This document shows, in pieces, positions 2,993 through 17,482 of a stretch of DNA of 39,240 nucleotides (position 1 is the first letter of the stretch; each line of letters begins with the position of its first letter). The position numbers and the translations under genes are program-made. This DNA comes from a virus, in the IMG/VR virus record IMGVR_UViG_3300042991_000156, positions 1 through 39,240 of that record. One strand, 5' to 3'. Below the pieces are notes generated by a model, which was given only the letters and a program-made list of their open reading frames with translations, did no database searches and was not told the DNA's origin.

Positions 2993-4015
2993 ATGACTGA
3001 ACGTAAATTAGTAACTCACCGAGTTATCAAAGATATCCTCCCTATTGAGGGTGCAGACCTTATCGAGTTAGCTATCGTGGATGGCTGGCAGTGCGTCGTT
3101 AAAAGGGGAGAGTTTAAAGTAGGCGATATAGGGGTTTATTTTGAAGTTGATAGCTTCTTGCCTATTAAACCTGAGTATGAGTTTCTACGTAAAGGGGGAT
3201 ACAAAGTTGTTGAAGGTTTAGGTGAAGGCTTCCACCTTCGTACAATCAAATTAAAGGGCAAGCTCAGTCAGGGGTTACTCCTTCCTTTACCACCCAGTGA
3301 GCTGCCTTTACTTGGAGAAGACCTTTCTGAAATCTATGGTGTTCGTAAATATGAGAAGCCAATCCCCACTCAATTAGAAGGAAAAGTTAAGGGCAACTTC
3401 CCTGATTTCCTTCGTAAGACAGATCAAGAGCGGGTGCAAAACTTAGACGATACCTCTAAGATTGCGGGGTATACGTTCGAGACAACCCTTAAGCTAGATG
3501 GGTCCTCAATGACGGTATACGTCAGGAATGGCTATATCGGGGTATGCTCTCGTAACCTTGAATTGGATATGGCGGATGAGAGTACTTCCTTTGTGAAGAC
3601 AGCTCACACTTCGGGGGCCTTCGCTGCGTTAGATGTCTTCTACAACGAAACCAGCGGGAATATCGCCTTACAGGGTGAGCTCATGGGTCCGGGTGTTCAA
3701 GGCAACCGTGAAGATCTTCCCTCCTTGCAATTCTTTGTATTTGATATATGGGACATTGATAGACAAGAGTATCTCCCCCCGAAGGGTAGAGAGAAGCTAG
3801 TCCTTGATTTGGGGTTAACTCCTGTGCCTATTTTAGGGGAAACCACTTATGACAGTGACGTTACCTTAGGAGAGATCCTAGAGAATGAGTTAGCTTTTGC
3901 AGAACAAATCCCCTCCCTTAAACACGCCATTGCTGAAGGTATCGTTCAAAAGAGATCTGACGGTAAGTTCTCGTTTAAAGCTATTAATAATAAGTTTTTA
4001 TTAAGTGAGGGATAA
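2993..4015 (+). CDS. RNA ligase, DraRnl (Rnl5)-like
   Basis: 340 residues. An N-terminal domain of about 120 residues of OB-fold type precedes the nucleotidyltransferase core, the order seen in the Deinococcus RNA ligase rather than T4 Rnl1 or Rnl2. Motif I is KLDGS with the adenylated Lys at about 167. Further motifs are CSRN (about 187), GELMGPGVQGN and FVFDIW (about 235-255), EGIVQK (motif IV, about 318) and FSFKAINNKFLL (motif V, at the C-terminus). The enzyme seals 3'-OH/5'-phosphate RNA ends using ATP. The stop shares a base with the kinase start (TAATG), so ligase and end-healing kinase are co-translated as an RNA-repair pair. Confidence 0.85.
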   Translation: MTERKLVTHRVIKDILPIEGADLIELAIVDGWQCVVKRGEFKVGDIGVYFEVDSFLPIKPEYEFLRKGGYKVVEGLGEGFHLRTIKLKGKLSQGLLLPLPPSELPLLGEDLSEIYGVRKYEKPIPTQLEGKVKGNFPDFLRKTDQERVQNLDDTSKIAGYTFETTLKLDGSSMTVYVRNGYIGVCSRNLELDMADESTSFVKTAHTSGAFAALDVFYNETSGNIALQGELMGPGVQGNREDLPSLQFFVFDIWDIDRQEYLPPKGREKLVLDLGLTPVPILGETTYDSDVTLGEILENELAFAEQIPSLKHAIAEGIVQKRSDGKFSFKAINNKFLLSEG

Positions 4016-5592: not shown

Positions 5593-7516
5593 AGCAGGTT
5601 TATCCTGTCCTAAATGCGGATCAACAGATGCCGGAATGCTATACAAAAATAGAAATCCTGAAACACAACAGGATTTTTACTTATTCTCTTGTAACTCAAG
5701 TAAACATGACCAAACAGACGGAGTATGGACGATGCCTGTAGTTGATCCCGATAATCACGAAGAAGAGATTACCTCTAAATTGAATGGAACATTCCAAATG
5801 GATGAAGACACCGTAATCGACGCTCCCCCTCAAGACGATCACGTTATCGGTCTTATTGAGGGTGGCGAATACCTGACACTTAATAACGCTAAGCATCCTT
5901 GGGGTGTCCGGCATATCACTGCGGATACGTGCAAACGCTATGGAGTTAAGTACAAAGAACTTCCCTTTTCGCGTAACCAATATGTAGCACACAAAGCCGA
6001 GGCTTCTGGCCTTTCAGTATACCAACCCGCAATGATATTTCCTAACTATGACGAAAAAGGAAAGCTTATTGGGCAGAAGGTTCGTAGCTTAAATCCCGTT
6101 ACAGGGGAACGCACCTTTGATTGGTATAAAGCCACAGAACAATTCTCCGCTCAACGTACCTTCTTTGGCCAGAATTTATGGCTATCTGAAAAGTATCATG
6201 GCAAGAAATTGGTAATCACTTTTGGTGAATTCGATGCTATGGCTTTGTATCAGATGACGGGGGAGCAGTATTGCGTTATCTCCGTTCCTGATGGGGATAC
6301 ATCTTTACGGGTACTCGCTGAGCGGTATTACAACTGGATGAATAAGTTTTCTGAAGTCATTTTCGTTCCGGACAATGACCCTTCAGGGGGTTGCCTTAAA
6401 TGCGTACAGCCTATCGCAGCAAAGTTTCCACGTAAGGCGAAGATCGTTAATTTGGTTAAGTATAAAGATCCTTGCGATTACTTAGCTAATTCGGATTTGC
6501 AAACATTTCGGGAAGAATTCTTTTCTGCTCAGGCTTTCACGCCTCAGAACATTGTCCCTTTGTCGTCTCAGAAACGCTTGCTGCTCGAAGATCCTCCGAA
6601 GCCTGTAGCGGATTATCCCTTCGAAGGCATGAACAAAATGCTAGGTGGTATCTGGCCCGGAGAACTTGTAACTCTTAAGGCGCGTCCCGGTCAAGGGAAA
6701 AGCTCTCTTATGAACGAGATTGCCCATCACTTATTCAGAACTACGGATGCTCGTGTAGGGATGATCTATTTAGAAGAATCCAAACGTGATTTGGTATTTC
6801 GTTTAGTGGGTATGGAGCTTAATCAGAATATGAAACTGAAGGGGACTAATCTGCAAGATCCTTCTATCGCCCTTGCGTTTGACACCCTCACACAGCCTGA
6901 GCGGTTCTTTATTGTCGATCATTGGGGCGCTTGCTCTTCTGACTTCATTGAAGAGAAGATCACTGAATTGGTATTAGCCTCTGGATGCCAGTTCATCTTC
7001 TTCGATCACATCTCTATGGCTATTACGGATGAAACCAATAAAGATGAACGTATTGCATTAGATCGGTTAGTCGCCTCTATTAAATCCTTAACTGTGGGTA
7101 TACTTGATTATGATGATGCGGGTAAGCCTATTGAACGGCATCCAACTATATTTATGGTCACCCATGTTAATGACGATGGCAAACCTCGCGGCTCTCGTGC
7201 GGCATTACAGTTGTCTAATACGGTGATTGATCTGGAGCGAGATGCTACAGCTAAGTCAGCGGTGGAACGTAATACGTTGCGCGTTACGATAGAGAAGAAC
7301 CGTCAATTAGGCGAGACAGGTGTAGCGTCTCTTTTATATTACACGAAAGAGACCGCCCGTTTAACGGAGATCCAAGAAGGGGAGCAGATGCCTGAGGATC
7401 AGCAAAAGGATGTGCCAGTAATGGATAACACACGCTTAGGGCAGGAGATGGCGAATACTAAACCTTACTTTGTAGTAGGTAAGAACTATGTAGCAACTAA
7501 AAAGGAAGGGAAATAA
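5570..7516 (+). CDS. Primase-helicase, T7 gp4-like
   Basis: 648 residues with the full two-domain layout. An N-terminal zinc-binding domain has CPKC (Cys13, Cys16) and a second cluster CNSSKH (Cys41, His46). A TOPRIM primase core has GEFDA (Glu220) and VPDNDPSG (Asp268, Asp270). A RecA-like hexameric helicase domain has Walker A ARPGQGKSS (Lys377), Walker B FFDHIS (about 478) and the later motif GSRAALQLSNTVIDLERD. It makes RNA primers and unwinds the fork ahead of the DNA polymerase encoded 0.5 kb downstream. The second metal site looks like Cys/His rather than the four Cys of T7. Start behind AAGGGGG inside the upstream gene. Confidence 0.9.
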   Translation: MKVGQLLKAGLSCPKCGSTDAGMLYKNRNPETQQDFYLFSCNSSKHDQTDGVWTMPVVDPDNHEEEITSKLNGTFQMDEDTVIDAPPQDDHVIGLIEGGEYLTLNNAKHPWGVRHITADTCKRYGVKYKELPFSRNQYVAHKAEASGLSVYQPAMIFPNYDEKGKLIGQKVRSLNPVTGERTFDWYKATEQFSAQRTFFGQNLWLSEKYHGKKLVITFGEFDAMALYQMTGEQYCVISVPDGDTSLRVLAERYYNWMNKFSEVIFVPDNDPSGGCLKCVQPIAAKFPRKAKIVNLVKYKDPCDYLANSDLQTFREEFFSAQAFTPQNIVPLSSQKRLLLEDPPKPVADYPFEGMNKMLGGIWPGELVTLKARPGQGKSSLMNEIAHHLFRTTDARVGMIYLEESKRDLVFRLVGMELNQNMKLKGTNLQDPSIALAFDTLTQPERFFIVDHWGACSSDFIEEKITELVLASGCQFIFFDHISMAITDETNKDERIALDRLVASIKSLTVGILDYDDAGKPIERHPTIFMVTHVNDDGKPRGSRAALQLSNTVIDLERDATAKSAVERNTLRVTIEKNRQLGETGVASLLYYTKETARLTEIQEGEQMPEDQQKDVPVMDNTRLGQEMANTKPYFVVGKNYVATKKEGK

Positions 7517-8003: not shown

Positions 8004-10466
8004 ATGTATTTCATAGATTATGAAACGTATAGCGAATGCGACATTAAATCAGCGGGGGCTTGGATGTATTCCCGCCACCCTTCTACGGAAGTCCTATGTA
8101 TGGCTTACGCTAAGGATGATGAGCCTGTCCAATTGTGGCTCCCCGGAGATCCGTTGCCTGACTTCGTGAAAGATCCTGCTAACTGTGGTGGAATCGAAGC
8201 GCATAATGCTGGCTTTGAAATCAGTATATGGCGCAATGTATGCCAACGCTTATATGGCTTTGCTGAAGCTCCTCTCTTTGTATGGCACGACAGCATGGCT
8301 AAGTGCGGGGCTCATGCTCTTCCTTTGTCATTAGAAAAAGCTGCTGATGCTTTGCACATCATGTTCAAGAAGGATATGCAAGGAAGTCGTATCATGCTTC
8401 AATTAGCACAGCCGCGTATTGCATCTAAGAAGCGACCAGAGTTGAGGTTCCTTAAAGGGGTGTGTCAAGAATGGGATGATAAGTTTGAACGCTTGTACGC
8501 CTACTGCAAACAAGACGTTGAAGTGCAACGTGCTATCAGTAAACGCTTAGCTCCTTTAACAAAGAGAGAGCGCAACTACTGGCTATTAACAGAGGCTATT
8601 AATTTACGTGGTATCCACTTAGATATGGCGCTCGTTAAGAAGGCGCAATCCTTAATGCAGGATTACGTTGCTTACTCTAAATCTCGTATTGCGGAGATCA
8701 CTAATGGAGAATTAACCTCAGTATCTACTGTGGCTAAACTTTTAAAGTATCTTCAAGGTAGAGGAGTGGTAATCCCTAATCCTGAGTATCCTAAACAAGG
8801 CGAGCAATATATCCCGATTGATAATCTGAGATCCGCTACATTAGAGAAGTTGCTTGATAGCTCGGTATTGGATGAGGACGTTATCGCGCGTGAGTGTGTA
8901 CAGTTGCGTTTAAGCACCGGGAAAAGCTCTACGGCGAAGCTCAATAAGATGATGACCATGAGCGATACCGACGATAGGGTTCGCCATAATTACAAATATT
9001 ATGGTGCCACGACCGGACGGGCAAGTGGAAATTCGATACAAACCCAAAATCTGCCACGGGGTAAGTTCGATGGGGATTACCCAGAAGAGATGCTCGAAGC
9101 TTGTGAAGACATCCTCAGCATGAACTTGATCGAACTCATTAAGAAGTACGAAAACTTTACAGGTAAGAACGGTAAGACAATAGCCCTGACACCTTTAGAT
9201 GTTATCTCTTCTTGTGTGCGTGGAATGATACGCGCAGAAAAAGGAAAGATCTTAATCGCAGCGGATTACTCTAATATTGAAGGCCGTATGACTGCATGGT
9301 GCGCTGGAGAAGATTGGAAGATCAAGGCGTTTGAGGAGTATGATGCCGGAACTGGGCCTGACCTTTATAAGCTGGCCTATTCTAAGGCGTTTAACATTGA
9401 TGTGAAAGACGTGACTAAGCCCCAGCGTATGGTAGGCAAAGTAATGGAATTGAGCTGCATCTCGGGAAATGCCTACGTAAGGACAAGCTACCCTAACTCG
9501 GATGGATACAGATATACAAGATTAGACAAGCTAGAACCTACTGATTTAGTATACGATGGTGTTGAATTTGTATCTCATGAAGGTCTGGTAGACAAAGGTG
9601 AGCAAAAGGTTATGCGACTTATGGGTATCGACCTAACCCCCAATCATCTTGTTATGTACAATGAAGAGTGGACCCTCGCTAAGAACTGCTTTTGGTTAGA
9701 CCCGCATACTTATGACTCGCCCAGACAAGTACAGGTTTATGATATTAAGAATTGTGGGCCCCGAAATAGATTTCTTATATGGGCGAACCCTATGCGAGAC
9801 TTCGAGTATTTATGTGTTCACAACTGCGGGTTTGGCGGCTCTAAAGGTGCATTCGCTAAAATGGCTGAAGGTTATGGGGCTAAGTTCACGGAAGCGGAAG
9901 CCCTCGCTAACGTCAAGGCATGGAGAGAGAAGCATCCCAATATCGTTCGTATGTGGTATGCCGTGTCAGATGCAGCGATGAGGGCCTTCATCCAAGCCGG
10001 AACTGTAGTCTATTCCGAAGAAGAACGTGGCAAAGTATCTTTCTTCTATGATAAGAAGAATGACTTCTTGCACATGAATCTTCCTTCTGGTAGATCGCTC
10101 AAGTATTTTGAACCCCGTATTCAAAGCAAGATCAATCCTTGGACGGGGCGTGACCAGAATTGCTTGACAGCTATGGGAACAGATTCCTTCACTAAGAAGT
10201 GGATACGATATGAGCTGAACCATCTCATTCTAACCGAAAACCTAGTCCAAGCTCTTGCTCGGGATAAGATGATGGAAGGGATGCTAAAGGCCGAGACCAA
10301 AGGGTATAGCATAACTATGACGATACATGATGAGCTTGTTTGCGAAGTCCCGGAGGAATTCGGATCTGTAGAAGAGTTTGAGAATATAATCTGTGAGTTA
10401 GATCCGTGGGCTAAGGGGCTGCCTGTATCCGCAGAGGGCTTCAGAGAACACCGATATCGCAAATAA
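8004..10466 (+). CDS. DNA polymerase, family A, with mini-intein
   Basis: 820 residues before splicing, about 697 after. The N-terminal 3'-5' exonuclease has FIDYE (Asp5, Glu7), the HNAGFE segment (Exo II) and YCKQDVEV (Exo III). The polymerase core has motif A DYSNIEGR (Asp421), motif B beginning R475..GK479, and motif C HDE (775-777). Motif B is interrupted by an intein at residues 485-607. After splicing it reads ELS-CGFGGSKGAF, with Leu483 at the position equivalent to Phe762 of E. coli Pol I, a variant seen in many environmental phage polymerases. Replicates the phage genome with the upstream helicase. Confidence 0.93.
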   Translation: MYFIDYETYSECDIKSAGAWMYSRHPSTEVLCMAYAKDDEPVQLWLPGDPLPDFVKDPANCGGIEAHNAGFEISIWRNVCQRLYGFAEAPLFVWHDSMAKCGAHALPLSLEKAADALHIMFKKDMQGSRIMLQLAQPRIASKKRPELRFLKGVCQEWDDKFERLYAYCKQDVEVQRAISKRLAPLTKRERNYWLLTEAINLRGIHLDMALVKKAQSLMQDYVAYSKSRIAEITNGELTSVSTVAKLLKYLQGRGVVIPNPEYPKQGEQYIPIDNLRSATLEKLLDSSVLDEDVIARECVQLRLSTGKSSTAKLNKMMTMSDTDDRVRHNYKYYGATTGRASGNSIQTQNLPRGKFDGDYPEEMLEACEDILSMNLIELIKKYENFTGKNGKTIALTPLDVISSCVRGMIRAEKGKILIAADYSNIEGRMTAWCAGEDWKIKAFEEYDAGTGPDLYKLAYSKAFNIDVKDVTKPQRMVGKVMELSCISGNAYVRTSYPNSDGYRYTRLDKLEPTDLVYDGVEFVSHEGLVDKGEQKVMRLMGIDLTPNHLVMYNEEWTLAKNCFWLDPHTYDSPRQVQVYDIKNCGPRNRFLIWANPMRDFEYLCVHNCGFGGSKGAFAKMAEGYGAKFTEAEALANVKAWREKHPNIVRMWYAVSDAAMRAFIQAGTVVYSEEERGKVSFFYDKKNDFLHMNLPSGRSLKYFEPRIQSKINPWTGRDQNCLTAMGTDSFTKKWIRYELNHLILTENLVQALARDKMMEGMLKAETKGYSITMTIHDELVCEVPEEFGSVEEFENIICELDPWAKGLPVSAEGFREHRYRK
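9456..9824 (+). other. Mini-intein in DNA polymerase (123 aa, no endonuclease)
   Basis: Residues 485-607 of the polymerase. It starts with Cys (CISGNAYV, block A) and has block B with TPNH (T..H). It contains VYDIKNCGPRNRF (block F type) and ends VHN, followed by Cys as the +1 nucleophile. So Cys1, the block B His, the His-Asn end and Cys+1 are all present, and splicing should be possible. There is no room for a homing endonuclease. The host site is the O-helix motif, between the residues equivalent to 763 and 764 of Pol I, so an unspliced polymerase would be inactive. Confidence 0.9.
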
Positions 10467-12364: not shown

Positions 12365-12572
12365 TGTAATCGAAATAGGTCAGTTTCCTTCCTTCTCCCG
12401 GTTGGATCAGCGTTCCTTAGACAACTTCTATTGGTTTGCAAAATTCACAGAAGATATGGATAAATTTAATGGTCACACGATATCAGTAGGACGAAGAATA
12501 TGGAAGAAAGAACTCGAAAAAGAGATACAAAAACGGCGATCAGATCCCATCACTGGTCAAATATCTCCTTAG
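12357..12572 (+). CDS. Hypothetical protein, 71 aa, TTG start
   Basis: Starts with TTG at 12357, six bases after GAGGAGA, and overlaps the nuclease gene by eight bases. A longer ATG start at 12300 would lie deep inside the nuclease gene. The product has an aromatic centre (NFYWFAKF) and a basic C-terminal helix (RRIWKKELEKEIQKRR). Its last 73 bases overlap the GIY-YIG gene. No family recognised; the good ribosome site is the main reason to believe it. Confidence 0.45.
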   Translation: MSNVIEIGQFPSFSRLDQRSLDNFYWFAKFTEDMDKFNGHTISVGRRIWKKELEKEIQKRRSDPITGQISP

Positions 12573-12955
12573 ATTTTATCCCCTTAGAGCATGAGGGGTT
12601 TATATATGAAGTGTACTACCTAGGCAAGCTTATCTATGTTGGCAAGAAATCTTTCTGGTCTAGCGTATCTGTCGTCGTTCCGGGGAAAAAGCGTAAGCAG
12701 AAGGTTGTCAAAGAGAGTAACTGGAAAACCTACACGGGTTCTTCAGTAGATCTAAATAGCGCTATCCGAAAATTAGGTAAAGAGAAGTTCATATTTAAAG
12801 TTGTATACCTTGCTAAAACCAAGATAGACCTTACCTATTATGAGGTCAAATCCCAAGTAGAGAATGATGTGTTAAACCATCCAGAGATGCTGAATGACTG
12901 TATTTTAGGTAAGTTTTATAAGGGTCGGGTATCAAAACTTAACAAAATTACTTGA
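12500..12955 (+). CDS. GIY-YIG endonuclease, SegE-like
   Basis: 151 residues. The GIY-YIG core appears as GFIYEVYY (33-40) and YVGKK (46-50). After it come ESNWKTYTGSS (about 72-82), a LNSAIRKLGKEKFIFKVVYLA segment, and the candidate catalytic Glu115 in LTYYEVKSQ. That order matches the SegE-like group of phage homing endonucleases, including the WKTY.GSS signature. The ATG at 12500 is 73 bases inside the previous gene, but no later start precedes the catalytic core. Free-standing, without a visible intron next to it. It would nick or cut a recognised DNA site to promote its own spread. Confidence 0.65.
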   Translation: MEERTRKRDTKTAIRSHHWSNISLDFIPLEHEGFIYEVYYLGKLIYVGKKSFWSSVSVVVPGKKRKQKVVKESNWKTYTGSSVDLNSAIRKLGKEKFIFKVVYLAKTKIDLTYYEVKSQVENDVLNHPEMLNDCILGKFYKGRVSKLNKIT

Positions 12956-13416: not shown

Positions 13417-13630
13417 CCTAGACTTTACAGGGGATAAGGCTGCGGCCATGTCCTTGGCGCAGAGTATTCAGAATTATTATCTCTCTAAGGGGTATAATAG
13501 TGTACTCGTAGAGATCCTCCCTAGAGTGCTTACCAATTCACAAGGTGATCGTGTAGCTGTACACTGGGACATTAGAAGCAATATCCGTTTTAAGGTGTCC
13601 GATGCTGTGGCGGGCCGGGTATTTGAATAA
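13388..13630 (+). CDS. Hypothetical protein, 80 aa
   Basis: Preceded by AAAGGAGTTAAAG, a good ribosome site inside the previous gene. The sequence suggests a helix (AAAMSLAQSIQNYYLSKG) followed by three beta strands (NSVLVEILPRVL, RVAVHWDIRS, IRFKVSDAV). No catalytic motif. Its stop shares a base with the HNH gene start (TAATG), so the three genes 12985-13902 form one coupled unit from the promoter at 12952. Confidence 0.5.
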   Translation: MRNVIPLLHNLDFTGDKAAAMSLAQSIQNYYLSKGYNSVLVEILPRVLTNSQGDRVAVHWDIRSNIRFKVSDAVAGRVFE

Positions 13631-13902
13631 TGTCTCCGGTTCAACGCAGAAATAAAGCCTACGTAGACAGAGTAAAGCGCTTTAAAGGGTGTAGGGTTTG
13701 TAAGTATAAGAAGTGCTCCACCGCATTAGAGTTTCATCATTTAGACTCAGCGAGTAAGAAATCGTCTATATCAAGACTAGCACAGGACGAGTATAGTCTA
13801 GCTACTATCAAAACTGAACTAAGAAAATGTGTTATCCTCTGTGCGAATTGCCACAGAGAAGAGCATGAAAGATTAGGCGACGAAGTCGAAGCAGACTTCT
13901 AG
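13630..13902 (+). CDS. Small HNH endonuclease
   Basis: 90 residues. HNH signature: CRVCKYKKC near residues 21-29, EFHHLD near 36-41 (catalytic His) and CVILCANCHREEH near 69-81. The four Cys in CxxC pairs would bind the structural zinc. Such small phage HNH proteins are nicking endonucleases that act either in homing or at packaging sites; its place beside a GIY-YIG gene and RNA genes suggests homing. The end of the gene contains an inverted repeat that may pair with the bases just after the stop. Confidence 0.8.
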   Translation: MSPVQRRNKAYVDRVKRFKGCRVCKYKKCSTALEFHHLDSASKKSSISRLAQDEYSLATIKTELRKCVILCANCHREEHERLGDEVEADF

Positions 13903-13962: not shown

Positions 13963-14030
13963 GGGGGTGAAAATGTTCGATTGCGTTGAAAGATGCAAGA
14001 CGGGGAGTGAAATCTCCTCCATCTCCACCA
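13963..14030 (+). ncRNA. tRNA-like RNA with encoded CCA, no D-stem
   Basis: 68 bases. The acceptor stem GGGGGTG (13963-13969) pairs over all seven positions with CATCTCC (14020-14026), followed by discriminator A and CCA (14027-14030). Position 3.70 is G.U, the main alanine identity pair. An 11-base D-loop-like stretch with GTTCGA but no D-stem is followed by a TTGCG/TGCAA stem (13981-13998) with an 8-base loop, then a GGGGAG/CTCCTC stem (14002-14019) with loop TGAAAT in the T-arm place. Absence of the D-stem, the 5' GGGG and the 3' CTCCACCA recall the tRNA-like domain of tmRNA, but there is no mRNA-like segment. It could be a degraded tRNA. Confidence 0.5.
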
Positions 14031-14049
14031 AATTAGTAATATCTACCTA

Positions 14050-14078
14050 TTGACAAATACCTCACTTTGATTCAATAT
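14050..14078 (+). promoter_or_regulatory. Candidate promoter for structured RNA and tRNA-Arg
   Basis: TTGACA at 14050-14055, exact, with CAATAT at 14073-14078 (three of six) after 17 bases. The predicted start, about 14085, falls on the first base of the closing stem of the RNA that follows, which supports the call despite the poor -10. Confidence 0.45.
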
Positions 14079-14248: not shown

Positions 14249-14325
14249 GAATGCATAGCTCAATTGGATAGAGCATCTGCCTTCTAAGCAGACGGTTGCA
14301 AGTTCGAATCTCGCTGTGTTCACCA
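14249..14325 (+). tRNA. tRNA-Arg (anticodon UCU), CCA encoded
   Basis: Cloverleaf by eye: acceptor GAATGCA (14249-14255) with TGTGTTC (14315-14321); D-arm GCTC..GAGC with loop AATTGGATA; anticodon stem TCTGC/GCAGA with loop CTTCTAA, anticodon TCT at 14283-14285. The T-arm GCAAG/CTCGC has one A-C mismatch and the conserved GTTCGAATC. ACCA is encoded at 14322-14325. It reads AGA (and AGG), which are frequent in this phage and often rare in hosts, so it likely supports late translation. It could also replace host tRNA-Arg cut by anticodon nucleases. Confidence 0.93.
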
Positions 14326-14596: not shown

Positions 14597-17482
14597 ATGC
14601 TATCTATCTACTCTGCTACATCTGAAACAACTGGTGAAACATATCATTTAACAGTAGACCAGAGTAGGGATGCCCTATTAAGCGAAGCCAGTCATGTGCT
14701 TCTAAAAGAAGGGAAATACATGCTCCCTGAAGAGACCTCCCCTCAGGAAGCCTTCGCCCGTGCTTCTATCGCCTTTGGGTCTAATCAAGACCACGCTCAG
14801 CGTCTATATGATGCGGTATCCCGTTTATGGTTTATGTATGCTTCTCCTGTGCTGTCTAATGCTGGCAATCCTAGGGGCCTACCCGCTAGTTGTGCGCTCA
14901 CATATATGGGGGATAGCCGAGAAGAGATTGCGGATTCTTGGAAAGAGATGTTATTCCTCTCTACATTAGGAGCAGGGGTGGGCCTCAATATGAGTGCTCT
15001 CCGTTCTGTGGGTACAGGCAATTCTCGTGGTACATCCACTCCGGGACTTATTCCTTTCATGAAAGTAATTGATTCTATTACATTGGCGTCCAAACAAGGG
15101 GAAGTCCGTAGAGGAGCTACAGCGGTATATCTAGATATTGGTCACCCAGAGTTCCAAGAATTCCTTGTTGCTAGAGAAGCTAGTGATGGAGGGGATATCA
15201 ACCGTAAATGCCAGAACATCCACCATGCAGTAAATATTCCTGATGTATTCATGGAAGCTGTTGTAGAAGGGAAAGACTGGTATTTTGTTGATCCGCATAC
15301 CAAGCAGATTAAAGGGACTACCTCTGCGAGAACCTTATGGATGGATATCCTTAAAATGAGAATGAAAACAGGTGAGCCGTATCTGCACTTTATTGATGCC
15401 AGTAATAGGGCGATGCCACAGGCATTAAAGGATAAAGGATTGAAGATTAGCCAGAGTAATTTATGCTGCGTTACAGGGGACCAGAGGATTGCTGTGAAGG
15501 GGAGAGGCTTAATAAAGGTTATTGACTTGTTGGGTGAACGAGCTACTACATTTGACGCAAACGGCGAAGTAACTTCTAAATCCCCTATGACACTGATATC
15601 CCCTTCTGCGCCTATTCTGCGTATCACGATGGAGGGGGGTCTATCCCACCGGGTTACTCACGAGCATAAGGTACTGACCACCGCAGGGCTGAAACGCGCG
15701 GATGAGCTACGCATTGGCGATAAGATCGAGCTGTCTCCTTCTGGGGCGTTGAATGCTTCAACAAGTTCTTTTTTAGAGAAGGCTGCTCTTGTGGCGGGGA
15801 TGCACACGGGGGATGGTACTGGAACGCATCGTTCTATAATACTGGACCTATGGGAGGGTAAGACGGACTCTTTGCTGTCGGAATTAGAAGATGCTGTAGC
15901 CGAATTAGTGGAGGGGGAGCCGCTGAACACTACCGCCACTCCGACACCGAGATTTGTGTCTTCGGTAGATGTAAACGGAAACGTTAAATTTCGTCTTAGC
16001 TCTAACGCCCTTTATAAAGTCATGGACAGACTAGATTATCAGAAAAATGTTACCCCAGAATTCGTGTGGCAGGGTAATTTAAAGACCGTATCCAACTATT
16101 TAAGAGGGGTATACGCTTCTGACGGGCATTTTCAGGGGTCGAAAAAATCGGGATCTACAACGATAGGCTTGGCTTCTATAAATAAAGAATTCTTATTAGA
16201 GGTTCAGCTTTTATTACGCAATTTAGGAATCACTAGCCAAGTGTACGATCTTGGTTCTGCGGGGGCTCGTGATACGCCCGACGGGAAAGGGGGGCTGTCT
16301 AGCTACGAGTGCAACGCCTCTTATAGACTGTATGTATCCTCTAGGGCCTCTGTTAAGCTATTAAATGATCTGATAGACCTCCATACTTTTAGAAAAGGCC
16401 CAACTGTAGATCATGTTTTATCTGAGATTTCTAAAGAGCCGTTTAGGAATAAACCCAAAACTAGTTTGGCAGTCATAGGGATTGCTTCGGACGGGGAAGA
16501 GCCAGTATATTGCTGGGAGATCGACAGCGATAGCCATTTGTGGACGTGCAATGGGGTATTAACGCATAACAGCGAGATTACCCTCCCTACATCCCCCACT
16601 CGTACGGCCATGTGCTTCCTTTCCTCTTTGAACCTAGAACTCTTCGAAGACTGGAGGGATAGCTCAGTTGTAGAAGATGCGGTTGAAATGCTCGATAACG
16701 TAGTCGAAGTGTTTATACGTAAAGCTCCTCCTGAATTGTGGAAAGCCGTAGCTTCAGCCAAAGCAGAACGCTCTATCGGATTAGGAATGATGGGATTCCA
16801 TTCTTATCTACAAGCTAAGGGGATACCCTTTGAAGGGGTTATCGCTGCTGCTGCTAATCGTAGAATGTTTTCTCATATTCATTCTAAGGCAATAGCCCAT
16901 TCTAAGGTGCTTGCCAAAGAAAGAGGGGAAGCTCCTGATATGGAAGGAACCGGGGAAAGGTTTTCATTCATATCTTCAGTTGCCCCCAATGCTTCGTCGT
17001 CTGTGCTTTGTAACTTTACAAGCCCCTCTATCGAGCCCTTTAATGCAAACATCTTCGTTCAAAAGACACGCAGAGGGGCATTCATCCTTAAGAATAAGCA
17101 CCTCAATGAGGTACTAGAAACGAAGTATGGCCTAAGCGACGGAGACTTAGAGAAAGCTTGGGATAAAATTCAAGAAGATGGAGGCTCTGTTCAAGATCTC
17201 CTTTTTATGGATGACCATGATAAGGGTGTATTTAAGACAGCATTCGAGTTAGATCAAAGATGGATTGTTGAACACGCCGCCCAGAGACAGCCCTTTATCT
17301 CTCAGGCTCAATCAGTCAATCTGTTTTTTCCGCTTGACATTACCACACAAGTTCTACATACTGTCCATAAAGAGGCTTGGGAAAAAGGGTTAAAGACGCT
17401 GTACTATGTGCGTTCTAAATCTGCTTCTCAAATTAAACGTACAACCATTTCTGCCAGCGACTGCATTGCCTGTGAGGGATAA
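14597..17482 (+). CDS. nrdA: Ribonucleotide reductase alpha subunit with intein
   Basis: 961 residues before splicing, about 593 after, shorter than E. coli NrdA (761) and lacking a long N-terminal ATP-cone. The core is class I: SPVLSNAGNPRG near 86, and the active-site motif N-x-C-x-E formed by Asn288, Cys290 and, across the intein, Glu660. The SSSVLCNFTSPSIEPFNANIF loop lies near residue 808. The C-terminal CIAC pair (Cys956, Cys959) relays electrons from thioredoxin. It reduces ribonucleotides to dNTP precursors together with nrdB at 19.1 kb. The intein spans residues 291-658. Start behind AGGAGAATCCC. Confidence 0.92.
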   Translation: MLSIYSATSETTGETYHLTVDQSRDALLSEASHVLLKEGKYMLPEETSPQEAFARASIAFGSNQDHAQRLYDAVSRLWFMYASPVLSNAGNPRGLPASCALTYMGDSREEIADSWKEMLFLSTLGAGVGLNMSALRSVGTGNSRGTSTPGLIPFMKVIDSITLASKQGEVRRGATAVYLDIGHPEFQEFLVAREASDGGDINRKCQNIHHAVNIPDVFMEAVVEGKDWYFVDPHTKQIKGTTSARTLWMDILKMRMKTGEPYLHFIDASNRAMPQALKDKGLKISQSNLCCVTGDQRIAVKGRGLIKVIDLLGERATTFDANGEVTSKSPMTLISPSAPILRITMEGGLSHRVTHEHKVLTTAGLKRADELRIGDKIELSPSGALNASTSSFLEKAALVAGMHTGDGTGTHRSIILDLWEGKTDSLLSELEDAVAELVEGEPLNTTATPTPRFVSSVDVNGNVKFRLSSNALYKVMDRLDYQKNVTPEFVWQGNLKTVSNYLRGVYASDGHFQGSKKSGSTTIGLASINKEFLLEVQLLLRNLGITSQVYDLGSAGARDTPDGKGGLSSYECNASYRLYVSSRASVKLLNDLIDLHTFRKGPTVDHVLSEISKEPFRNKPKTSLAVIGIASDGEEPVYCWEIDSDSHLWTCNGVLTHNSEITLPTSPTRTAMCFLSSLNLELFEDWRDSSVVEDAVEMLDNVVEVFIRKAPPELWKAVASAKAERSIGLGMMGFHSYLQAKGIPFEGVIAAAANRRMFSHIHSKAIAHSKVLAKERGEAPDMEGTGERFSFISSVAPNASSSVLCNFTSPSIEPFNANIFVQKTRRGAFILKNKHLNEVLETKYGLSDGDLEKAWDKIQEDGGSVQDLLFMDDHDKGVFKTAFELDQRWIVEHAAQRQPFISQAQSVNLFFPLDITTQVLHTVHKEAWEKGLKTLYYVRSKSASQIKRTTISASDCIACEG
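15467..16570 (+). other. LAGLIDADG-type intein in nrdA (368 aa)
   Basis: Residues 291-658. It begins CVTGDQRI (block A), and block B is VTHEHKV with T..H. Endonuclease motifs LVAGMHTGDGT (about residue 397) and YLRGVYASDG (about residue 503) match the paired LAGLIDADG helices. Block F is VYCWEIDSDSHLWTCNGVLTHN in outline. It ends His-Asn, and the +1 residue is Ser. All splicing residues are present and the endonuclease looks intact. The insertion point is immediately after the catalytic thiyl-radical Cys (Cys290), so no partial activity is possible before splicing. Confidence 0.93.

Follow-up and report, generated by a model that had tools for sequence, protein, structure and literature searches.

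What is the short tRNA-like element at positions 13963–14030 of a 39,240-base IMG/VR contig from a tailed phage, the whole of which we analyzed and refer to here as the window? A preliminary description based on sequence alone had likened the element to the tRNA-like domain (TLD) of tmRNA without its mRNA, and had suggested that it might be a decoy or regulator of AlaRS, SmpB or EF-Tu, or simply a tRNA in decay. Bacteria use tmRNA to release stalled ribosomes. In trans-translation AlaRS charges its TLD and EF-Tu carries it; SmpB also binds the TLD and stands in for the lower half of a tRNA (PMC3022190). Our analyses indicate that the element is very likely a TLD-only relative of tmRNA, or mini-tmRNA, and that it belongs to a phage family.

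The element is 68 nt long on the + strand, runs from G1 to an encoded CCA, and reads GGGGGUG-AAAAUGUUCGA-UUGCGUU(GAAA)GAUGCAA-GAC-GGGGAG(UGAAAU)CUCCUC-CAUCUCC-A-CCA; its limits are supported by the MFE fold and by R1, a covariance model from which the window was left out. The 5' strand of the acceptor, GGGGGUG (13963–13969, with G3 at 13965; sequence, fold and R1), pairs at all seven positions with the 3' strand CAUCUCC, which together with A73 and CCA occupies 14020–14030 (U70 at 14024; sequence and R1). Two of these pairs are wobbles, G3-U70 (13965/14024) and G5-U68 (13967/14022), and A73 and CCA (14027–14030) are encoded in the DNA. Immediately after the acceptor 5' strand come 11 nt, AAAAUGUUCGA (13970–13980; sequence and R1), that form no D-stem; they keep the tmRNA D-loop motif UUCGA and lack its GG. 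Next come a middle hairpin, UUGCGUU-GAAA-GAUGCAA (13981–13998; fold and R1), which is the counterpart of tmRNA P2 and has no anticodon loop, and a T-arm counterpart (14002–14019) with the 6-bp stem GGGGAG/CUCCUC and the loop UGAAAU. The T-arm is supported by the fold and by a relative from another phage contig, L167, in which the loop is the same and the stem changes are compensated.

The MFE fold of the RNA consists of exactly these helices (acceptor, 7-bp middle hairpin and 6-bp T-arm) at −23.8 kcal/mol, with a z score of −2.4 and 5 of 200 shuffles equal or better. Only 21 nt separate UUCGA from the T-arm and these fold as a single hairpin, so there is no tag reading frame and there are no pseudoknots. 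Sequence, fold and the lack of a tag frame are thus shown, as are the family and its conservation described below. The preliminary description had claimed seven acceptor pairs with wobbles, G3-U70, A73 and an encoded CCA at 13963–14030, all of which held; its claim that the D-stem is absent and that no space remains for a tag segment held for the window and for the family.

Structure alone is no more than suggestive. When both strands of the window were scanned with a descriptor that combined a 7-bp acceptor, NCCA, an adjacent T-arm and a middle hairpin, the element was the sole match. The loose form of the descriptor gave 0.73 matches per Markov shuffle and the strict form matched in 5 of 60 shuffles, a p of about 0.08; it is therefore homology, not structure alone, that places the element above chance. 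Standard models do not recognize it. ARAGORN made no call at the element and reported only a tRNA-Arg(UCU) in this part of the window, and the two Rfam searches that the preliminary description had proposed as a check were negative, the tRNA model RF00005 giving no match even at E 10 and the tmRNA model RF00023 giving none at any threshold tried, E 10 included. Matches of the element to the group II intron model RF00029, mir-29 and tmRNA_permuted fell far under cut-off and were dismissed.

One rival reading holds that a chance structure lies over a Shine-Dalgarno sequence and a short leader ORF. The weak significance of structure alone (p about 0.08) is in its favor, as is the fact that GGGGGUGAAAAUG reads as a Shine-Dalgarno sequence plus start codon; many chance matches of that string resemble gene starts. 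A 26-codon ORF, MFDCVERCKTGSEISSISTKLVISTY (13973–14053, + strand), indeed lies behind the Shine-Dalgarno-like GGGGGUG. Against this reading, the ORF at the same place in L167 is in a shifted frame and encodes an unrelated peptide, AUG is absent from most family members, and R1 recognizes the element with an E of 1.7e-7. We accordingly rejected the leader-peptide reading of GGGGGUGAAAAUG, judge the ORF coincidental and consider this rival very unlikely.

The element occupies a short intergenic region. An HNH endonuclease gene (13630–13902, + strand), which has many relatives inside phage tRNA clusters, ends 60 nt upstream, and the canonical tRNA-Arg(UCU) called by ARAGORN (14249–14325, + strand) begins 218 nt downstream. 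No promoter reached threshold in a scan upstream of the element. A SegE-type GIY-YIG gene (12500–12955) makes the HNH gene one of two homing-endonuclease-like genes just upstream. Beyond the tRNA-Arg, positions 14597–17482 encode a ribonucleotide reductase large subunit with an in-frame intein that contains a LAGLIDADG domain (PF14528, with a weak PF14890 match). At 2993–4015 lies a phage RNA ligase gene (PF09414 plus PF21189), whose product might repair tRNA-like RNAs after cleavage. In annotated phages, blastn with the intergenic stretch found nothing relevant, no close relatives of the window phage were found, and a DNA polymerase search yielded no relatives; a ribonucleotide reductase search led to four distant loci in which ARAGORN found no tRNA or tmRNA genes.

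Relatives of the RNA itself were identified in IMG/VR. An exact search with the first 23 nt of the element gave no match. A scan that specified only the acceptor (GGGGGTGA, 40–54 bases, CAYCYCCACCA, with C70 permitted) yielded 52 stretches representing 34 distinct sequences. An adjacent T-arm was present in 13 of the 34, where random positions, at a rate of 3.5%, would give about one; the other 21 are likely chance matches. The T-arm-positive sequences more often contained the tmRNA D-loop motif UCGAY (8/13, versus 1/21 of the T-arm-negative ones) and U70 (12/13 versus 8/21, C being permitted by the scan). When sequences were compared by their interiors alone, which the scan had not used, the six best partners of the window among the 34 were all T-arm-positive. 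L167 ranked first with an interior score of 55, where the best of 5000 shuffles reached 46.

A second IMG/VR pattern was freer in the acceptor and required UCGAY and a canonical T-loop. At least 93 distinct sequences of 62–83 nt passed a check of stems and fold. The shorter form of this family has a single middle hairpin, and the longer form (mostly 76–83 nt) contains a helix that encloses a UAAAGCC...GCGGA element. Neither form has room for a tag frame, and pseudoknots are absent from the family. Long ORFs overlap 29% of these elements, compared with 73% of random positions. The inner UAAAGCC-NNN-GCGGA recurs in long-form members of 80–83 nt (L217, L226 and L287, for example), and its function is unknown. 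One tRNA-rich contig, L156, carries tandem mini-tmRNA-like genes 11 nt apart (6723–6803 and 6815–6881). Also seen were short RNAs of tRNA-like form (L159, 315–386; L166, 4716–4786) that have the same acceptor and a canonical T-arm and whose D-region lacks UCGAY; these could represent a further class.

Rfam itself recognizes the relatives as tmRNA. In 31 of the 33 phage records tested, RF00023 scored above its gathering score at the TLD-only element, and it aligned end to end (1–374) on these short elements; neighboring tRNAs were filed under RF00005. The phage elements are thus tmRNA relatives that have both ends of the TLD and no message part. No SmpB gene was found in any of the 33 records, which does not prove its absence because many of them are fragments. 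These records also bear on the possibility that such elements are attachment-site remnants, pieces of host ssrA carried by integrating phages. Several temperate phages do have the 3' end of ssrA as their attachment site. Attachment fragments, however, hold only one end, whereas family members have both ends and a covarying closing hairpin, and a tyrosine integrase occurs in only 2 of these 33 often fragmentary records, so the elements as a class are not attachment sites. We regard this explanation as all but excluded.

Covariation supports the family fold. In 22 short-form sequences, from which the window and L167 were left out, 99.5% of cells were paired and 12 of 18 pairs showed two-sided changes: pairs 5 and 6 of the acceptor, each of the six middle pairs and four of the five T-stem pairs. 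None of 500 shuffles of this set reached those values of pairing or covariation. In a 79-sequence alignment that includes the window, 15 of 18 pairs were altered on both sides, a count that leans towards structure because the alignment was fitted to the model. The preliminary description had named a lack of homologues with compensatory acceptor changes as grounds for refutation. This was not borne out, since there are many phage homologues and two-sided changes affect two acceptor pairs (5 and 6) and almost all pairs in the remaining helices. G3-U70 is present in all 79 sequences, the window's included, though the scans had permitted C70. This pair is an identity element for AlaRS, and its strict retention makes it probable that alanine charging is under selection, an inference from conservation.

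R1, the covariance model, was built from the same 22 sequences without the window or L167, in line with the custom model of phage homologues that the preliminary description had suggested. It recovered 13963–14030 to the nucleotide, scoring 42.7 bits (E 1.7e-7) with all pairs standard, while the neighboring tRNA-Arg scored 12.3. The result is partly circular and so not fully independent, because the scans that collected the sequences were modeled on the window's acceptor and UCGAY. R1 also scores a tRNA-Ala-like element (L063) at 39.1 bits and, in one bacterial genome, a 98-nt element of unknown identity at 41.2 bits, so its score alone cannot separate a TLD from a tRNA; what it shows is kinship with a tRNA/tmRNA fold that has a G3-U70 acceptor.

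The score of the tRNA-Ala-like element is one point in favor of a degenerate or unusual canonical tRNA (tRNA-Ala, for example) that lacks a D-arm, as are the tRNA-Arg located 218 nt downstream and an acceptor that fits tRNA-Ala. Several observations speak against it. The element has no RF00005 match at E 10 and no ARAGORN call, it has neither a D-arm nor a 7-nt anticodon loop, its interior resembles those of mini-tmRNAs, and Rfam files its relatives under RF00023 and their adjoining tRNAs under RF00005. We prefer a TLD to a tRNA because the D-arm and anticodon loop are missing, the tRNA match failed and the interior comparison favors a TLD. The canonical-tRNA explanation is very unlikely; the likeness to a tmRNA TLD without its mRNA, as proposed, is supported as fold and kinship by the homologues, by R1 and by the RF00023 matches to relatives.

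As a mini-tmRNA, the window RNA is unusual. It keeps UUCGAU without the preceding GG that is found in 91 of 93 other family sequences, and its loop is UGAAAU where the canonical T-loop is UUCRANY. We treat it as related but divergent, not as a typical member, because it lacks the canonical T-loop, a feature that the broad scan itself required. In tRNA and tmRNA alike, the elbow is where the D-loop GG contacts the T-loop UUC. Both motifs are absent from the window RNA and from L167, and also from L153, which has a GAAA loop instead. L167 is in the same length class as the window RNA and shares with it AAAAUG(N)UCGAUUG, AAGACG and the 6-base loop UGAAAU; where their T-stem pairs differ, both sides are altered in compensation. 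No protein similarity between the two phages was detected in the 11.9 kb compared. A pattern for the UGAAAU sub-lineage matched 11 loci, of which L167 is the only real one, the others looking like chance matches. Upstream of the L167 RNA lies a promoter-like TTGCAT-N16-TAAAAT, identified by eye, and directly beside the RNA is a divergent gene (8923–9630) whose product has the head domain of a CCA-adding/poly(A) polymerase.

The caution that the preliminary description had voiced over the degenerate T-loop is therefore justified, the lineage having lost both the canonical T-loop and the D-loop GG that meets it. These losses could mean that the window RNA is a mini-tmRNA in decay, a descendant of the family that is losing function. 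The missing match to RF00023 would fit such decay, and there is a precedent in Streptomyces phage Alone3 (L314), whose copy looks decayed (R1 24.4 bits, versus 44.6 in its relative LuckySocke). Yet every stem of the window RNA is intact, its CCA is encoded, and the UGAAAU loop recurs with compensated T-stem changes in a phage without detected protein similarity over 11.9 kb. Because shared derived loops with compensation are unlike an outcome of decay, we consider decay unlikely. The joint loss of the contacting GG and UUC, with the remainder kept, tips the balance modestly towards a derived design, on the evidence of only three sequences.

TLD-only tmRNAs also occur in cultured phages. Streptomyces phages LuckySocke, GiJojo, Shaeky and pSt2308 each carry one inside a tRNA array (records L299, OR725497 17977–18057; L312; L313; L315). 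The four copies score 57–61 bits with RF00023, have no encoded CCA and are not annotated as tmRNA. Near-full-length matches to a type-B sequence among isolates were in Streptomyces phages. Six other isolates were considered and rejected as mini-tmRNA carriers: CcrBL9, S-CAM1, PaMx31, RpAliso and Tunturi_5 have complete tmRNAs in permuted form, and in Shandong1 a piece resembling the 3' part of ssrA adjoins an integrase. The five permuted complete genes carry no tmRNA annotation in their records, and the PaMx31 record has no annotation at all.

What might such an RNA do? In the mechanism that we propose, the mini-tmRNA would be a tmRNA TLD in which one short hairpin replaces the mRNA-like domain and pseudoknots. 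It would be transcribed with the flanking phage genes, trimmed by host tRNA-processing enzymes and charged by host AlaRS through G3-U70 and A73. EF-Tu would then bind it, as would host SmpB, at least for relatives with an intact elbow. A message-less RNA of this kind could occupy the partners of tmRNA, enter stalled ribosomes and block resumption on a tag. Such a decoy role is plausible because a TLD-only molecule similar to that of mycobacteriophage DS6A is reported to inhibit E. coli tmRNA strongly, whether or not it can be charged, perhaps by titrating SmpB (work quoted in PMC4131195; repeated in PMC11915505). The suggestion that the window RNA could be a decoy or regulator of AlaRS, SmpB or EF-Tu is plausible by this precedent, and its function is untested. 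Granting the TLD-only identity, a decoy or inhibitor of host trans-translation is by our estimate as likely as not, since function is inferred by analogy. Taken together, a mini-tmRNA that disturbs trans-translation as a decoy for SmpB, EF-Tu or AlaRS is the best explanation overall, at a probability of roughly 0.45, with transcription, charging, binding and effect all inferred.

The main functional rival is a tag-free rescue RNA. An alanine-charged TLD, together with host SmpB, would take over the nascent chain and recycle ribosomes without adding a tag, so that phage proteins would be spared proteolysis. Mitochondrial tmRNA, which lacks a tag frame, co-occurs with SmpB and has been argued to aid on incomplete mRNAs (PMC11915505), and strict G3-U70 suggests a role for charging, with which a pure SmpB sponge could dispense. 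On the other hand, in the sole cited test a similar molecule inhibited tmRNA (PMC4131195, PMC11915505), and the RNA offers no stop codon or message for normal termination. We consider tag-free rescue unlikely.

Against the preferred decoy reading stand the missing RF00023 match and the absence of the canonical T-loop UUCRAN and the D-loop GG, by which the elbow of the window RNA, and possibly its binding to SmpB, is altered. It is conceivable that SmpB binding is weak in this elbow-less lineage and that AlaRS or EF-Tu is the target, which remains conjecture. A bolder version, possible at most and likewise inferred as to function, is that diverse phages encode widespread mimics of tmRNA, devoid of a tag, by which host ribosome rescue is shut down or redirected, with the window's sub-lineage, elbow-less and with its alanine acceptor kept, perhaps acting through AlaRS and EF-Tu rather than SmpB.

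Two plastids and a single phage, DS6A, were already known to have a TLD-only tmRNA; the literature that we found cites no other phage case. The literature searched, which excluded most subscription literature, did not describe a broad family of this kind in phages. What is new is a set of at least 93 distinct phage sequences with a covarying fold, plus the four unannotated copies in cultured Streptomyces phages; a phage RNA gene that recurs in this way escapes standard annotation. If the family does act like the DS6A-type molecule, phages would commonly tamper with trans-translation by RNA mimicry, and mimicry of tmRNA would be a new route of host takeover.

With the tmRNA/ssrA of RF00023 the window RNA shares the G3-U70 acceptor, A73-CCA, the stemless D-region, UUCGA, the P2 counterpart and the position of the T-arm, whereas it lacks the tag frame, the pseudoknots, the T-loop UUCRAN and the D-loop GG and falls under RF00023 detection. 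Complete phage tmRNAs, often in two pieces (Melnitz, PMC9004378; CcrBL9, S-CAM1 and RpAliso), are also phage-borne relatives of ssrA, but they carry a message part and are permuted, neither of which is true of the window RNA. Mitochondrial tmRNA (RF02544) likewise has no tag frame and is thought to work with SmpB; its genes are organellar and usually permuted. The CDS-less tmRNAs of Mallomonadaceae plastids, at about 65 bp (PMC11915505), fall in the same size class and also lack a tag frame, but are plastid-encoded rather than viral. The DS6A RNA, from which the window RNA differs in having no canonical T-loop, resembles it in being phage-borne and in containing little beyond the TLD of tmRNA.
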